This document shows, in pieces, positions 4,956 to 33,907 of a stretch of 36,831 nucleotides of DNA. The stretch spans positions 1-36,831 of the forward strand of contig CAMJWJ010000012.1 in assembly GCA_946409435.1 (NCBI GenBank), written 5' to 3'. The stretch's first letter is position 1. Every line of letters starts with the position of its first letter. Source of the stretch: an uncultured Prevotella sp. (GTDB lineage: Bacteria > Bacteroidota > Bacteroidia > Bacteroidales > Bacteroidaceae). A program made the translations under genes and the position numbers. Below the pieces are notes generated by a model. That model did no database searches. It worked only from the letters and a program-made list of their open reading frames with translations, and was not told the DNA's origin.

Positions 4956-6164
4956 ATGAAAGAGAACTATTTTGTAGACGAGAAAGGCTACTACGGCGAA
5001 TTTGGCGGAGCTTACGTACCGGAGATTCTTTACGCTACCGTAAGGAACCTGCAGGAGGCTTACAGGCCGATAGTAGAGAGTGAGGAGTTCAAGCGCGAAT
5101 ACCACGCCCTGCTGAAAGACTACGTCGGACGTCCGTCGCCATTGTACTACGCCCGCCGGATGAGCGAGAAGTACGGCTGCCAGTTGTATCTCAAGCGCGA
5201 GGACTTGAACCACACCGGTGCACACAAAATCAACAACACCATCGGCCAGATACTGCTGGCCAAGAAGATGGGCAAGAGCCGCATCATTGCCGAGACAGGC
5301 GCCGGACAACATGGTGTGGCGACGGCCACGGTCTGTGCACTGATGGACATGAAGTGCGAGGTGTTTATGGGAGCCACCGACGTGGAGCGCCAGCACACCA
5401 ACGTCGAGCGCATGAAGATGCTCGGTGCCGAGGTACACCCTGTGCGTACTGGCAACATGACGCTGAGCGACGCCTGCTCCGAGGCCATCCGCGACTGGTG
5501 CTGCCATCCTGCCGACACCTTCTATATAGTCGGCTCCACCATGGGACCTCACCCCTACCCTGATCTGGTGGCCCGCATGCAAAGCGTCATCAGCGAGGAA
5601 ATCAAGTGGCAGCTGCAGGAACAGGTAGGTCGTGACTATCCTGACTATCTCGTCGCCTGCATCGGTGGTGGCAGCAATGCCGCTGGCACCATCTACCACT
5701 ACGTCAACGACGAACGCGTAAAAATCGTGCTGGCCGAGGCTGGTGGCCATGGCTGGCAGACGGACTACACGGCAGCAACCATCCACAAGGGCAGCACGGG
5801 CATCCTTCACGGTGCCAAGATGCTGGTCATGCAGAACGATGACGGCCAGATTGAGGAGGCTTTCACCATCAGTGCCGGCCTCGACTACCCCGGTGTAGGC
5901 CCCATGCACTGCAACATGGCCAAGAAAGGTCGCACACAGGTGCTGAGCATCAACGACGACGAAGCCATCTACGGCGGTTACGAGCTGACGCGCATGGAGG
6001 GCATCATTCCTGCCATTGAGAGTGCCCATGCTATTGCCGCCCTCAAGCATCTGACGTTCCATGCCGACGACGTGGTGGTACTCACCGTCAGTGGCCGTGG
6101 CGACAAGGATGTCGAGACGTATCTCAAGAACAAGCAAATGGCCAAGGAATACGGAAATTTTTAA
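4956..6164 (+). CDS. trpB: Tryptophan synthase beta chain
   Basis: KREDLNHTGAHKINNTIGQ PLP-lysine motif, AETGAGQHGVATA, GGGSNAAG. Confidence 0.98.
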   Translation: MKENYFVDEKGYYGEFGGAYVPEILYATVRNLQEAYRPIVESEEFKREYHALLKDYVGRPSPLYYARRMSEKYGCQLYLKREDLNHTGAHKINNTIGQILLAKKMGKSRIIAETGAGQHGVATATVCALMDMKCEVFMGATDVERQHTNVERMKMLGAEVHPVRTGNMTLSDACSEAIRDWCCHPADTFYIVGSTMGPHPYPDLVARMQSVISEEIKWQLQEQVGRDYPDYLVACIGGGSNAAGTIYHYVNDERVKIVLAEAGGHGWQTDYTAATIHKGSTGILHGAKMLVMQNDDGQIEEAFTISAGLDYPGVGPMHCNMAKKGRTQVLSINDDEAIYGGYELTRMEGIIPAIESAHAIAALKHLTFHADDVVVLTVSGRGDKDVETYLKNKQMAKEYGNF

Positions 6165-6196
6165 TTATTAATTATTAATTATTAATTGTTAATTAT
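6162..6196. repeat. Heptanucleotide tandem repeat (TAATTAT), 5 units
   Basis: Five units counted between the trpB stop and trpE start (6199); first unit includes the trpB stop. Confidence 0.95.
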
Positions 6197-6198
6197 TC

Positions 6199-13081: not shown

Positions 13082-14251
13082 ATGAAGATACTATTCCTCG
13101 TCTATCACGGATTCTCGGAGCATAGCGGTATCTCGAAGAAGATACACTACCAGGTGAAGGGCCTGCGCCAGAACGGCCACGACGTGAGGCTGTGCCACTA
13201 TGGATTTGACGACCGCGGCCATCGCTGCCGCTTCGTCGACGGACAGGTCATCGAGGACTATGGCTCCGGTCCTCTGGCTGCTGCCCGGCAACGCACCAGC
13301 TACGGCTGCATCGGCGACTACTGCCGCCGCGAAGGCATCGAGATGGTCTACGCCCGCTGCTTCCAGAATGCCAGCCCCTGGCTGATACACCTGTTTCGCA
13401 GACTGCGCCACTTGGGCATCCGGGCCGTGACGGAGATACCCACCTACCCCTACGACAACGAGTTCTCCAGCAGCAGCGACTGGAGCATGCGCCTCGACCT
13501 GTGGCTGGACAAGCGGTGCCGCCACGCGCTGTACCGACAGATGGATGCCGTGGTGACCTTCTCCGACGAGGAGCGCATCTTTGGGCAACGCACCATCCGC
13601 ATCAGCAACGGCGTCGACTTCGACAGCATCCCGCTGCACCGGTTTGGAGGTGAGGGGTTAGAGGTGAGTGGTGAGCAGCCGCTCCACCTCATCGGCGTCG
13701 CCGAGGTACACTTCTGGCACGGCTTCGACCGGCTGATAGCAGGCATGGGCGAATACTACAGGAGCGGCGGGACGCGCGACATCGTCTTCCACATCGTCGG
13801 CGGCGTACACCCCAACTATATGCAGGACATCGCGCAGGCTCCCGGTTTCCAGACGCTCATCGACCGCTATGGACTGGCAGGCAAGGTCGTCTTCCACGGC
13901 ACCCTGTTCGGCAGCCAGCTGGACGACGTGTTCAACCAAAGCCAGTTTGCCATCGGTTCGCTGGCGCGCCACCGCAGCGGCATCACCGTCATCAAGACGC
14001 TGAAGAACCGCGAATATGCCACGCGTGGCATGCCCTTCATCTACAGCGAGCAGGACAGCGACTTCGACGGCCAGCCCTACGTGCTGAAGGCTCCTGCCGA
14101 CGAGTCGCCTATCGACATCCAGCGCATCATCGACTTCCTGGCCCACTTCAGCATGAAGCCCGAGGAAATCCGTAAGACGGTGGAGCACCTGGCGTGGAAG
14201 ATACAGATGCAGCGCGTCGTAACCGCTGTCGCCGACATCTCCAAACTGTGA
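13082..14251 (+). CDS. Glycosyltransferase (GT4-like, GT-B fold)
   Basis: MKILFLVYHGFSEHSGISKKIHYQVKGLRQNGHDV N-terminus; position in GT cluster. Confidence 0.7.
   Translation: MKILFLVYHGFSEHSGISKKIHYQVKGLRQNGHDVRLCHYGFDDRGHRCRFVDGQVIEDYGSGPLAAARQRTSYGCIGDYCRREGIEMVYARCFQNASPWLIHLFRRLRHLGIRAVTEIPTYPYDNEFSSSSDWSMRLDLWLDKRCRHALYRQMDAVVTFSDEERIFGQRTIRISNGVDFDSIPLHRFGGEGLEVSGEQPLHLIGVAEVHFWHGFDRLIAGMGEYYRSGGTRDIVFHIVGGVHPNYMQDIAQAPGFQTLIDRYGLAGKVVFHGTLFGSQLDDVFNQSQFAIGSLARHRSGITVIKTLKNREYATRGMPFIYSEQDSDFDGQPYVLKAPADESPIDIQRIIDFLAHFSMKPEEIRKTVEHLAWKIQMQRVVTAVADISKL
13647..13675. repeat. Degenerate heptamer repeat (GAGGTGA-like) inside a glycosyltransferase gene
   Basis: gaggtga ggggtta gaggtga gtggtga g, coding the low-complexity segment GGEGLEVSGE. 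Confidence 0.7.
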
Positions 14252-14295
14252 ACTATGAACTATGAACTATGAACTGTGAACTATGAACTATGAAC
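14247..14295. repeat. Heptanucleotide tandem repeat (TGTGAAC/TATGAAC), 7 units
   Basis: Seven units counted; first unit includes the preceding gene's TGA stop; same repeat as 1463-1525. Confidence 0.95.
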
Positions 14296-14299
14296 TGAT

Positions 14300-28450: not shown

Positions 28451-29713
28451 TCACTTCAAGGGGAGGTCTACCCAGAAACACGAGCCCTTACCGAATTCTG
28501 ACTCTATGCCGACCTTCCCATCTATACTGAGAGCCAGACTACGGCAGATACTCAGTCCGAGGCCTGTACCTGGCACAAAATCGTCGACCTTGACAAACCG
28601 TTCAAACAAGTGGTCATTACAATCTTTCTGTGCGATACCTCTTCCCGTATCACGAACCCATATCCGCAAGCTGTCGTTCCTGACATCATACCCTAACGTC
28701 ACGCTGCCCTCATCGGTAAACTTGATGGCATTGTCTACATACTGGTTCAGTATTTCGGAAAGCCTGCGTCGATCCGTCACCGGCATCGGGTCAACGGGTT
28801 TCAGTTCAGTCTGCAGTGTCAGTCCCTTGCTGGTGGCCTTTTCGCTGAAACGATCGGCCACCTCCGCCAGCAACTTGTTCAGTTCAAGACTCGCCATATT
28901 TGCAGCCTCGTCGCCAGCCTCCAGTTTCGACATGTTCAGCATGTCGTCAAAGAGTCTCAGCAGCTGCGCATTGTTCTGCTTAATCAGCGTCACTAACTGG
29001 TCGCGCTCCTCTGCCGTTTTCGCCATCGACAGCACTTCGCTGAACCCGACAATGGCATTGAGCGGCGTACGGATCTCATGACTGACATTTGCCAGGAAAG
29101 CCGACTTCAAGCGGTCGCTCTCTTCGGCATGGTTACGGGCGTCTATCAGCGCCTGCTCTATCTCCTTCTGACGGTCTATCCGCATAGTCGTCCCCACAAT
29201 GCTTACCACGTTGCCATTCAGGTCACGCTGGTCAACCGTAGCATATAGCTCGCCCCAATAGCAACGATCGCTATGAGGTATGCGCATCTTGTATTCCATG
29301 TGGAACTCATCCAGCGTTCCACTGATGAAGCCCTGCAGGCCACGGTCCAAGTCCTTACGGTATTCTGGCAGCAGGTGATCAATAACAACACTCAGCGATG
29401 TGCCAGGAGGCAGCGACAGGCTGTTAGACATGTCACGATAGTCACTCTCAAAAGAAACCGTTAGCGTAGGCATGTCAAGACGCCACACCGACAACTTCAT
29501 CGTCTTCATCACCAAGTCGTACTCTATAGTGTGGCCTTTCACTTTTGCCAGATATTCCAGCTGGCGCTTCTGCCTGTGTATGTTACGCAGCTGGACATAA
29601 ATGAAAAAGAGTGCCAGCACAACCAGTGGTACAGCTATGATCCATACCAGAATATCAAGGCGTAACAGGTAGCCAAGATACATGAGAAATAACACTTTCA
29701 TCGTCGCCATCAA
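28451..29713 (-). CDS. Membrane-bound sensor histidine kinase (PAS-like, HisKA, HATPase)
   Basis: FLANVSHEIRTPLNAIVGFSEVL H-box; VDNAIKFTDEG N-box; VRDTGRGI; GTGLGLSICRSL; N-terminal TM segment. Confidence 0.95.
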   Translation of the reverse strand: MMATMKVLFLMYLGYLLRLDILVWIIAVPLVVLALFFIYVQLRNIHRQKRQLEYLAKVKGHTIEYDLVMKTMKLSVWRLDMPTLTVSFESDYRDMSNSLSLPPGTSLSVVIDHLLPEYRKDLDRGLQGFISGTLDEFHMEYKMRIPHSDRCYWGELYATVDQRDLNGNVVSIVGTTMRIDRQKEIEQALIDARNHAEESDRLKSAFLANVSHEIRTPLNAIVGFSEVLSMAKTAEERDQLVTLIKQNNAQLLRLFDDMLNMSKLEAGDEAANMASLELNKLLAEVADRFSEKATSKGLTLQTELKPVDPMPVTDRRRLSEILNQYVDNAIKFTDEGSVTLGYDVRNDSLRIWVRDTGRGIAQKDCNDHLFERFVKVDDFVPGTGLGLSICRSLALSIDGKVGIESEFGKGSCFWVDLPLK

Positions 29714-29737
29714 GGATTATGTTTGCTCGTATGGCTG

Positions 29738-29990
29738 CAAAGTTACGAAAAAACGAGAGAAGAGCAAAATAAATTTATTTATTTTTTCTTCCGAGTCCTC
29801 AGTAAGTTCGTCACGGAGTGACAAAGTTACGAAAAAACGAGAGAAGAGCAAAATAAATTTATTTATTTTTTCTTCCGAGTCCTCAGTAAGTTCGTCACGG
29901 AGTGACAAAGTTACAAAAAACGAGAGAAGAGCAAAATAAATTTACTTATTTTTTCTTCGAGTGCATAGTAACGTTGCCACAGAGTGGCAT
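29738..29990 (-). repeat. 84-bp tandem repeat array, each clear unit carrying a minus-strand promoter motif
   Basis: Units start at 29738, 29822 and 29906 (third diverged). Minus-strand TTTTG-N19-TAACTTTG in units 1 and 2; spacer 18 in unit 3. Confidence 0.92.
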
Positions 29991-30046
29991 TGTTTCGTAA
30001 AATGTACTTTCGCTCGACAATAAAAACAAAAAAAATGTTTTTTTGT

Positions 30047-30077
30047 TTTGTATTGTTCTCGCTTATTCGTACCTTTG
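30047..30077 (+). promoter_or_regulatory. Promoter of the rlmL-like gene (TTTG-N19-TACCTTTG)
   Basis: -33 at 30047-30050, -7 at 30070-30077, spacer 19 nt. Confidence 0.8.
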
Positions 30078-30101: not shown

Positions 30102-31646
30102 ATGACACAACAATTTGAAATGATCGCCAAGACATTCATGGGCTTGGAACCCGTCTTGGCGAAGGAACTGACCGCTTTGGGCGCCAGCGATGTGCAACCT
30201 GGACGTAGAATGGTTTCGTTCACTGGCGACAAAGAGCTGTTATACCGCGCCAATTTCCAACTTCACACCGCTATTCGTATCTTAAAACCCATCAAGCACT
30301 TCCATGCGCTGTCGGCCGACGACGTCTATGAGGCTGTCAAGGACGTTGACTGGAGCCAGTATCTTGCACTTGACAAGACCTTTGCGGTCGACTCGGTGGT
30401 ATTCTCCGACGAGTTCCGCCACTCGAAATTCGTCGCCTACAAGGTCAAGGATGCCATCGTAGACCAGTTCCGCGAGAAGACTGGCCAGCGGCCTAACATC
30501 AGCATATCGAACCCCGACATCCGGCTGCACATCCATATTGCAGAGGATGACTGCACGCTCTCGCTGGACTCCAGCGGTGAGTCGCTGCACCGCCGCGGCT
30601 ACCGGCAGGAGTCCGTGGAGGCACCGCTGAATGAGGTGCTGGCCGCCGGCATGATACTGATGACCGGATGGAACGGCGACACCGACTTCATTGACCCCAT
30701 GTGCGGCAGCGGCACGTTGTTGGTCGAGGCGGCACTGATAGCCCACAACATGGCCCCTGGTTTGTTCCGCAAGGAATATGCCTTTGAGAAATGGCCCGAC
30801 TTCGATGCCGACCTTTTCGACCAGATATACAATGACGACTCCAAGGAGCGTGAGTTCAAGCACCACATCTACGGTTACGACGTCGACATCAAGGCTGTCA
30901 ACACTGCCCGTCTGAATGTGAAAGCAGCAGGACTCAGTGCCGACATCACCGTTGCCGAGCAGGACTTCAAGGACTTCACACAGCCTAAGGAGAAGAGCAT
31001 CATGGTGACCAACCCGCCCTACGGCGAGCGCATCTCTACCCCCGATCTGCTGGGCACGTACAAAATGATTGGTGAGCGGCTGAAGCACCAGTTCATCGGC
31101 AATGATGCCTGGATCCTGAGCTACCGAGAAGAGTGCTTCGACCAGATAGGCCTAAAGCCCAGCATCAAGATTCCCGTGTACAATGGTTCGTTGGAATGTG
31201 AGTTCCGCAAGTATCAGATGTTCGACGGCAAGATGCGTGAGTTCCGCTCCGAAGGTGGTGTCGTCAAGACGGAGGAAGAGAAGCGCCAGATGGCTGAGCG
31301 CCGCCGTTTCAAGCAGAACCGTGAGTTCAAGAAACGCCTTGACGAACAGGAGGAGAATGCCGAGGCGGACATTCGTTCCTTTAAGTTCCGCTCGTTAGAG
31401 AAAAAGGAGACACGTTCCAGGGATGCCCGAGACGCTTACGACTCCAGGGAAACTAAAGGTTCCAAGGGATTCAGGGATTCCAGAGATTCCAAAGGTTTCA
31501 GAGATTCCAAAGGTTTCAGAGACTCCAAAGGTTTCAGAGATTCCAAGGACTCAAGATACTCCAAGGACTCGAGGAAGTTCAATAAGGGCGGCCGTGATTT
31601 TGGCAAGAAGAATAATCATAGATTCCACGACGATGAAGACGATTAA
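30102..31646 (+). CDS. rlmL: THUMP-domain class I SAM-dependent RNA methyltransferase (RlmL/YcbY-like)
   Basis: DFIDPMCGSGTLLVEAALIAHNMAPG and MVTNPPYGERI motifs; charged repetitive C-terminal tail. Confidence 0.88.
   Translation: MTQQFEMIAKTFMGLEPVLAKELTALGASDVQPGRRMVSFTGDKELLYRANFQLHTAIRILKPIKHFHALSADDVYEAVKDVDWSQYLALDKTFAVDSVVFSDEFRHSKFVAYKVKDAIVDQFREKTGQRPNISISNPDIRLHIHIAEDDCTLSLDSSGESLHRRGYRQESVEAPLNEVLAAGMILMTGWNGDTDFIDPMCGSGTLLVEAALIAHNMAPGLFRKEYAFEKWPDFDADLFDQIYNDDSKEREFKHHIYGYDVDIKAVNTARLNVKAAGLSADITVAEQDFKDFTQPKEKSIMVTNPPYGERISTPDLLGTYKMIGERLKHQFIGNDAWILSYREECFDQIGLKPSIKIPVYNGSLECEFRKYQMFDGKMREFRSEGGVVKTEEEKRQMAERRRFKQNREFKKRLDEQEENAEADIRSFKFRSLEKKETRSRDARDAYDSRETKGSKGFRDSRDSKGFRDSKGFRDSKGFRDSKDSRYSKDSRKFNKGGRDFGKKNNHRFHDDEDD
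31474..31562 (+). repeat. 18-bp in-frame tandem repeat coding KGFRDS in the rlmL-like tail
   Basis: AAAGGTTTCAGAGAYTCC at 31491-31508, 31509-31526 and 31527-31544, with degenerate flanking copies. Confidence 0.9.
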
Positions 31647-33855
31647 TACCCTGTCGCTACTACTGCTACTGCTTATCATTCCCGTTTTGCCTATGACTGC
31701 CCAGGAAAAGAAGTTGTTTACCCTCGAAGACCTGAACTTCGGCGGCTACAACTACCGCAACCTGCAACCCGAGAATAAGTGGCTGACATGGTGGGGCGAC
31801 GAACTGATACGCACCGACGTTGAGGCGTGCTACACCATTGACAAGAAGACTGGCCGCGAGACGGTACTCTTTACCCTCGACGACATCAACAAATGGGCTG
31901 GCAGCAATGAGGATGAGAACCGCTACGTGCGCCATCTGATGAACGCCACCTTCCCCTATGCCGACCAGCCGTTGGTGGCTGTCGGCAACAAGCAGGCCTA
32001 TATCCTGGTCGACTTCAAGAAACATCAGATCGTATGGCAGGACAGCATTTCCGGACAGGATGCCAACGACTGGAACAAGACATCGCGGGCTACTGCCTAC
32101 GTCAAGGGCTGGCAGCTCTATGTGACTGATGCCGAAGGCCATAAGCACCAGCTGACCACCGACGGCAACCGCGAAACGGTCTACGGCAAGAGCGTTCACC
32201 GCAACGAGTTCGGCATTGAGAAGGGGACATTCTGGAGTCCCGACGGCCAGCGGCTGGCTTTCTACCGCATGGACCAGAGCATGGTAGCCGACTATCCGCA
32301 GGTAGACCTCTTCCCAAGAGAAGCCACCTACGAGCCAGACAAATATCCGATGGCCGGCATGACCTCACACAAGGTCACCGTGGGTGTCTACGACATGACC
32401 ACCGGACACACCGTCTACCTGAAGACACCAGTATCGAAGGACACCGAGGCGGTGATTAGCGGTACCTCTGCCGACAACCTGCCCGCCTACTTCACCAACA
32501 TCGCATGGAGTCCCGACAGTAAGACCATCTATATGTTTGAGGTCAACCGCGACCAGAATGACTGCCGCCTGGTGAGCTACGATGCCGTAAGCGGCGAGCG
32601 GCTTGCAGAGCTGTATCGCGAGACGAGCGAGAAGTACGTTGAACCGCTCCACCCCATCCAGTTCTTGCCGTGGGATGCCGACAAGTTTGTCATACTGAGT
32701 CAGCGCGACGGTTACCGGCACCTTTATTTATATAATAAGGAGGGACAACTGCTGAGCCAGCTTACCAGCGGTCCGTGGGTGGTACAGGAGGTGTTAGGGT
32801 TTAACGAGAAACAGAGGAGCATCCTCATCACCTCCAATGAAGCCAACCCCATCCAGCACAACACCTACGCCGTCAACGTCAAGACGGGCAAGCGCACCCT
32901 GCTTGACAACGGGCGCGGTTCCCACCGTGCCGTACCATCTACTTCTGGAGAGTGGATATACGACAAGTACACGGAGCCTGACGTGCCGCGCAATATCGAC
33001 ATCGTCAATGTGAAGACAGGCAAGGGGCAGCGTCTGCTCACTGCCGAAGACCCGTGGAAAGACTATCAGCAACCTATCTTCGAGAGTGGCACCATCAAGG
33101 CTGCCGACGGCACCACCGATCTCTACTACCGCATGGTGAAGCCCAACGACTTCGACGCTACGAAGAAGTATCCCACCGTGGTGTACGTCTACGGCGGTCC
33201 TCATGCCCACAACGTCGAGGCTGCCTGGCACTGGTACAGCCGCTCGTGGGAGACCTATATGGCACAGAAGGGCTACGTGCTGTTCATCCTCGACAACCGA
33301 GGCAGCGAGAGCCGTGGCCGTGACTTTGAGCAGGCCACTTTCCGCCAGTTAGGGCAGGTGGAGATGCAGGACCAGATGAAGGGCGTAGAGTTTCTGAAAT
33401 CCCTGCCATACGTCGATGCCGACAGACTGGGTGTCCACGGCTGGTCGTTCGGTGGATTCATGACCATCTCGCTCATGCTCAACTACCCCGATACGTTCAA
33501 GGTCGGTGTGGCTGGTGGCCCCGTCATCGACTGGAAGTGGTACGAGGTAATGTATGGCGAGCGGTACATGGACACCCCCGAGCAGAACCCCGAGGGCTAT
33601 GCCAAGGCCAGTCTGCTCGACAAGGCCAGCAACCTGAAAGGCCGTCTGCAGGTCATCACGGGCTACAACGACAACACCGTAGTGCCGCAGCATTGCCTGT
33701 CGTTCCTCGACGCCTGTGTGAAGGCTGGCACGCAGCCCGACTTTTTCGCCTACCCCGGCGAGGAGCACAACATGCGCGGCCATGCATCGGTTCACCTGCA
33801 CGAGCGAATCACCCGCTACTTTGAGGACTATTTGAAATTGAAAATTGAAAATTGA
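31633..33855 (+). CDS. S9 family peptidase (dipeptidyl peptidase IV-like)
   Basis: Signal peptide MKTINTLSLLLLLLIIPVLPMTAQ at 31633; YVYGGPHAHNV; HGWSFGGFMT catalytic Ser; EEHNMRGHASVHLHERI. Confidence 0.93.
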   Translation: MKTINTLSLLLLLLIIPVLPMTAQEKKLFTLEDLNFGGYNYRNLQPENKWLTWWGDELIRTDVEACYTIDKKTGRETVLFTLDDINKWAGSNEDENRYVRHLMNATFPYADQPLVAVGNKQAYILVDFKKHQIVWQDSISGQDANDWNKTSRATAYVKGWQLYVTDAEGHKHQLTTDGNRETVYGKSVHRNEFGIEKGTFWSPDGQRLAFYRMDQSMVADYPQVDLFPREATYEPDKYPMAGMTSHKVTVGVYDMTTGHTVYLKTPVSKDTEAVISGTSADNLPAYFTNIAWSPDSKTIYMFEVNRDQNDCRLVSYDAVSGERLAELYRETSEKYVEPLHPIQFLPWDADKFVILSQRDGYRHLYLYNKEGQLLSQLTSGPWVVQEVLGFNEKQRSILITSNEANPIQHNTYAVNVKTGKRTLLDNGRGSHRAVPSTSGEWIYDKYTEPDVPRNIDIVNVKTGKGQRLLTAEDPWKDYQQPIFESGTIKAADGTTDLYYRMVKPNDFDATKKYPTVVYVYGGPHAHNVEAAWHWYSRSWETYMAQKGYVLFILDNRGSESRGRDFEQATFRQLGQVEMQDQMKGVEFLKSLPYVDADRLGVHGWSFGGFMTISLMLNYPDTFKVGVAGGPVIDWKWYEVMYGERYMDTPEQNPEGYAKASLLDKASNLKGRLQVITGYNDNTVVPQHCLSFLDACVKAGTQPDFFAYPGEEHNMRGHASVHLHERITRYFEDYLKLKIEN

Positions 33856-33865
33856 AAATTGAATA
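33831..33865. repeat. Heptanucleotide tandem repeat (TTGAAAA), about 5 units
   Basis: tttgaaa ttgaaaa ttgaaaa ttgaaaa ttgaata; covers the final codons of the S9 peptidase (LKLKIEN*). Confidence 0.92.
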
Positions 33866-33907
33866 ATTAGCCACCGCCACCAATACGGTGACCAAAATAC
33901 TACCGCC

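Follow-up and report, generated by a model that had tools for sequence, protein, structure and literature searches.

The histidine kinase gene of an uncultured Prevotella sp. is probably served by three head-to-tail copies of a dispersed, palindromic promoter cassette of the sigma-ABfr type. The repeated unit is a dispersed, structure-conserved cassette with a predicted promoter, and the array before the kinase gene, found in a stretch of 36,831 nucleotides (the window), is one case of a genus-wide family.

The array was located at positions 29738-29962 by TRF (period 84, 2.7 copies, 97% matches, score 429). BLAST comparison showed that units 1 and 2 (29738-29821 and 29822-29905, minus strand) are identical, and that the diverged unit 3 (29906-29996, minus strand) shares 87% identity with unit 1 over positions 29906-29986. 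The earlier note had described a three-unit, 84-bp array upstream of a minus-strand kinase gene, and this array is real. A covariance model of the unit matched positions 29738-29830 for unit 1 (E 3e-21), 29822-29914 for unit 2, and unit 3 with an E-value of 3e-12. The downstream target is the kinase gene itself (28451-29710, minus strand; HisKA and HATPase_c domains), which by translation has its ATG at 29710, with a TTG in the same frame at 29713 and another ATG at 29701.

Each of the three units carries a putative promoter on the minus strand. In unit 1, the proximal cassette that is predicted to drive the kinase gene, TTTG-N19-TAACTTTG occupies positions 29738-29768, with the -7 box at 29738-29745 and the -33 box at 29765-29768. 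A pattern search placed the same TTTG-N19-TAACTTTG promoter at 29822-29852 in unit 2 and a counterpart with N18 spacing at 29906-29935 in unit 3, so that the proposal of a Bacteroidetes promoter in every unit, with N19, N19 and N18 spacing, is borne out by the sequence. The pattern TTTG-N(17-23)-TAnnTTTG occurred seven times in the whole window against 0.28 expected, and none of 100 shuffles reached seven. The sigma-ABfr (RpoD-type) promoters of Bacteroidetes have a Bacteroides consensus of TTTG at -33 and TAnnTTTG at -7 (PMC7366714). The window units share with these promoters both boxes and their customary spacing, and a gene begins about 25 nt further on; they differ in that the published consensus consists of two boxes only, whereas here the boxes belong to a conserved, palindromic, dispersed and tandemly multiplied cassette.

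A fourth unit in the same intergenic region points the other way (29997-30077, plus strand; covariance model match E 1e-7), and its spacing, like that of units 1-3, is N18-N19, in keeping with the roughly 19-20 nt between the boxes of sigma-ABfr promoters. It comprises TTTG at 30047, TACCTTTG at 30070-30077 and a palindrome at about 30016-30058, and would serve an RlmL-type methyltransferase gene (30102-31646, plus strand; Pfam UPF0020, THUMP and RlmL_1st) that is divergent from the kinase gene. This plus-strand unit, the palindromic nature of the unit and its genome-wide dispersal had all escaped the earlier note. The 3' end of the rlmL-like gene also contains 18-bp repeats (31455-31564) that give a low-complexity C-terminal tail. 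Separately, arrays of 7-bp repeats lie in or near the gaps between long ORFs of the window: AACTATG at 1453-1527 (10.7 copies) and 14244-14296 (7.6 copies), AATTATT at 6156-6197 (6 copies) and AAATTGA at 33835-33868 (4.7 copies).

It had also been suggested that the 84-bp period, equal to 28 codons, keeps open a minus-strand frame encoding a repeated 28-residue peptide. A stop-to-stop frame of this kind does exist (29717-29941), but it has no ATG and does not run the length of unit 3, in which the frame is broken. Array periods across the genome range from 52 to 104 and are divisible by 3 in nine of 29 cases, which is the chance level and removes the basis of the codon argument. A translated upstream ORF or repeat peptide was accordingly rejected, as it fails on both the start codon and the keeping of frame across copies.

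The 84-mer matched many places in its own genome by BLAST, often again head-to-tail. Of 60 related genomes, 24 also gave matches, and apart from one weak match these lay within the genus. An exact core pattern was present at 21 loci among 84,980 species genomes; the hosts were Prevotella or Prevotellaceae MAGs, many from the rumen, plus one carrying the label Bacteroidaceae and a single isolate, Prevotella sp. tf2-5. The covariance model (R1), built from 28 units, gave at least 143 matches at E ≤ 1 in the 2.76-Mb own genome. At E ≤ 0.01 there were at least 121 units, typically 75-90 bp long, in at least 92 arrays (66 single, 23 double and 3 triple), such that 26 places hold two or three units head-to-tail. 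At the same threshold, and among up to 150 candidates scored per genome, other genomes of the genus gave between 0 (G012, G016 and G029) and 104 units (G032), and three genomes of other families gave none. No Prevotella start-site maps or papers on this repeat were found in the open library searched.

The orientation of the cassettes relative to genes was assessed on stretches taken around the model matches, in the 62 own-genome arrays with enough flanking sequence. A gene start was scored where an ATG lay no more than 130 nt away and opened a frame of 60 codons or more. In the promoter direction such a start followed 58 of the 62 arrays, at a median distance of 24 nt; in the opposite direction it was present in 20 of 51. 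One of the four exceptions precedes a tRNA-Leu gene, two are followed by another unit of their own array, and the fourth by GTGAAAGAACGG..., with a possible GTG start. This suggests that the cassettes are placed as ordinary gene promoters, and the reading of the kinase array as a multiplied Bacteroidetes-type promoter is backed by the same count. Position and sequence together give good support to the predicted promoter role. The genes served, as far as can be told from the downstream sequences, look mixed, and hence no obvious regulon emerges.

Read in the promoter direction, each unit consists of a far box, CGAA(C/G)TTAC, followed by CTCGG, palindrome A, CTCG, a T-rich spacer and the near box GTAACTTTG. 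Palindrome A of unit 1 lies at 29759-29791 on the minus strand, with the -33 box in its 3' arm, as judged from sequence, fold and compensatory changes; its counterparts are at 29843-29875 (unit 2) and 29926-29958 (unit 3). Palindrome B spans the junction of two units, where the near box of the first and the following unit's far box enclose a small hairpin. At 29802-29830 (minus strand) it joins units 2 and 1, combining the unit 2 -7 box, the hairpin TCACtccGTGA and the unit 1 mirror box; it too is backed by sequence and compensatory changes, and has counterparts at 29886-29914 and about 29968-29996. A cassette variant was seen at L008 and L013 (G000:C125 and C70), in which palindrome A is enlarged by an inserted hairpin-like stretch (GAAGATTTTGATTAGATTAACAATCAAAATC).

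Both palindromes were recovered by RNAalifold. In the named structure 96.4% of cells are paired, with 68 both-side changes where shuffles give 19 ± 4, and pairing falls to 45-55% when the partner is slid by 1-3 columns; these controls are strong, not absolute, since the copies share ancestry and the alignment itself supplied the structure. The variable base of the boxes covaries, GTAAC occurring with GTTAC or CTTAC, GTACC with GGTAC, and GTATC with GATAC. Complementarity at this base was found in 40 of 46 own-genome units (shuffled 18.6 ± 3.1) and in 63 of 69 units from other genomes (shuffled 43.8 ± 2.5), giving 103 of 115 units with complementary near and far boxes. The conserved unit ends are these GTAxC/GyTAC boxes, and the unit has terminal inverted repeats of the kind expected of a MITE. 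The arms of palindrome A paired with their own partner at 9.8 of 13 positions, and with that of another unit at 8.0 and 8.5.

Taken as a model, each cassette would constitute a complete sigma-ABfr-type promoter (TTTG-N19-TAnnTTTG) arranged as an extended, imperfect palindrome, in which the far box is the mirror image of the -7 box, the large AT-rich palindrome A holds the -33 box, and the near -7 box would drive the gene, with the small palindrome B joining successive units. The proximal unit would start most transcripts of the kinase operon, about 20 nt before the ATG, the start position within the unit following from general knowledge of -7 boxes. Units 2 and 3 would provide extra start sites gained by tandem duplication, and unit 4 would serve rlmL in the other direction. 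The conservation of the palindromes exceeds what promoter function by itself needs, so that this model does not fully explain palindrome B. The palindromes may reflect a two-way promoter ancestry, a template-switch process during replication, or a structural need.

One explanation of the palindrome is that RNA polymerase starts from the mirror box as well as from the near box, each cassette firing in both directions; we regard this as possible, if on balance unlikely. The mirror box matches the variant of the -7 box; read outward, it is a -7 box with TTCG in place of TTTG, and one cassette with both boxes intact (L022) sits between two divergent gene starts. However, 80 of 115 units have CGAA at the end of the mirror box and just two have the perfect CAAA, and in many arrays no gene begins on the far side, as the count of 20 in 51 indicates. 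Since the mirror box is a -7 box altered at one base, a cassette would be mainly one-way, and could be two-way when both boxes are intact. What tells against the one-way promoter cassette itself is that TAnnTTCG is retained in the mirror box, although a second promoter that had only been weakened could be expected to decay. Bidirectional, pseudo-symmetric bacterial promoters have been described that arise from the symmetry of the core boxes themselves (PMC10268837, PMC12825309). The likeness lies in the mirror-symmetric boxes and in L022, the single intact two-way cassette, whereas the boxes here end a palindrome of roughly 70 bp and covary.

A MITE-like origin, in which the unit is a non-autonomous mobile palindrome, its outward promoter is incidental and its placement at gene starts results from selection or survival after insertion, is a reading that we doubt. 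It would account for the dispersal, the inverted ends, the near-identical copies at unrelated places and the very uneven unit numbers between species. The 77 identical bases shared by two unrelated places (L003 and L004) point to recent copying, and count in favour of the promoter cassette model as well. Against it, flanking direct repeats were near the chance level, so that no target-site duplications were apparent in a small sample of 23 single units; no Y1 transposase tracks the family; nearly all copies are aimed at gene starts; and the inter-unit palindrome B also covaries, which insertion into a target does not predict. BrickBuilt of Porphyromonas gingivalis is a MITE/minisatellite with a 23-nt spacerless repeat, a leader and a tail, IS5-like ends and 19 copies; it has promoter activity in both directions, its unit number varies between strains, and its authors liken it to putative mobile promoters (PMC4596501). 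It too is a dispersed intergenic repeat with tandem units, from the same bacterial order. In contrast, the units described here are palindromic, typically 75-90 bp, each with a whole predicted promoter, and are nearly always directed at a gene start.

REP elements fall into the GTAG and CGTC superfamilies; those of the GTAG type go together with RAYT transposases, and no core promoter role is described for them (PMC3733652). A REP has a GTAG or CGTC tag at one end of a palindrome of 20-40 bp, and the conserved ends seen in the cassettes are GTAxC/GyTAC boxes. They resemble the cassettes as short palindromes in many copies, single or grouped, with pairing kept; they differ in that the cassette family is not tracked by RAYT and has a promoter-specific placement. 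The Y1/RAYT transposase domain PF01797 was found neither in the own genome, at 78% completeness, nor in G009, with 80 units and 99% completeness, and Y1 transposases are present in unit-poor genomes such as G010 and G016. A REP/RAYT mechanism was judged unlikely, since the presence of PF01797 does not follow unit number. The cassettes may have been copied by recombination or gene conversion, or by an enzyme other than RAYT. A bolder and distinctly improbable extension is that of a genus-specific, self-spreading promoter family, copied by a non-RAYT route and supplying the core promoters of a few per cent of genes, whose hairpins (as cruciforms or single strands) would be needed for spread or for promoter control.

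Two further sequences were seen next to cassettes. A conserved element of ~170-200 nt lies directly 3' of a cassette in several species, 75-95% identical and in 1-5 copies per genome (L003 1329-1499, i.e. G000:C74:2026-2196; G000:C71:79-278; C139:6495-6583; L035, L041, L074 and L084). It is often near contig ends, has no Rfam match and, in the reverse reading, has its own TTACCTTTG and a strong hairpin; it could be a noncoding RNA of a new type or the end of a mobile element. In addition, in two genomes GGGCCCTGCAAAATTCG followed by TTACTCGG stands at contig ends next to cassettes that belong to different subfamilies (L012 1-30, the L008 contig end, L118 1-50, L083, L087 and L090), as if an insertion sequence targets one fixed point of the cassette.

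The palindromes could also be kept by mutation, if template switching during replication repairs imperfect palindromes and so produces apparent compensatory changes. This seems to us unlikely to be the main explanation. The inner stems of palindrome B change freely in sequence and yet pair in most units, as template switching predicts; the near box, however, is under promoter constraint, and the mirror box keeps its specific one-base difference, which repair to a perfect palindrome would erase.

The compensatory changes, together with folds for units 3 and 4 that are more stable than those of shuffled sequences (z -3.6 and -3.8), are compatible with a structured RNA, read-through transcripts carrying hairpins A and B as terminators, processing sites or a small RNA. 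This is very unlikely. A transcript initiated by the cassette's promoter would begin within B, which leaves read-through as the only source of the complete hairpin; the T-run after A is missing from other subfamilies; there was no minus-strand terminator call and no Rfam match; and units 1 and 2 fold only modestly beyond shuffles (z -2.2). An intrinsic terminator was rejected, as there was no minus-strand match and the T-run is not conserved, and a known RNA was rejected because no Rfam match reached the gathering score, chance matches alone lying below it.

Finally, the locus was compared with that of 13 further genomes of the genus that have an orthologue of the kinase, one genome per species. 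A kinase-directed array of the own type was absent in all 13 relatives. Twelve have one TAnnTTTG box directed towards the kinase; G032 has two such matches, one of them inside the palindrome of an opposite array, and its units of the same family are aimed at rlmL, none at the kinase. In three close genomes (L077, L081 and L091), the downstream genes are 99% identical and the sequence upstream of the proximal unit differs. Array content thus differs from one species to another, with arrays peculiar to particular lineages. A dedicated switch, with units gained or lost within the species to tune or phase-vary kinase expression, would fit these differences and the recent duplication implied by two fully identical units, but it is improbable, given that such arrays stand before about one in four of all cassette-bearing genes, whose functions are mixed, and so do not mark the kinase as special.

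The usual picture of a promoter is a pair of short boxes that evolves separately at each gene. In this genome, about 90 places, nearly all of them gene starts, hold near-standard cassettes with a covarying, mirror-image structure, and the cassette family is plentiful in some Prevotella-type species and missing from others. If transcription confirms the predicted promoters, the family would offer a natural setting in which to study the copying, multiplication and loss of promoters, and would caution against taking a single tandem array for a dedicated switch.
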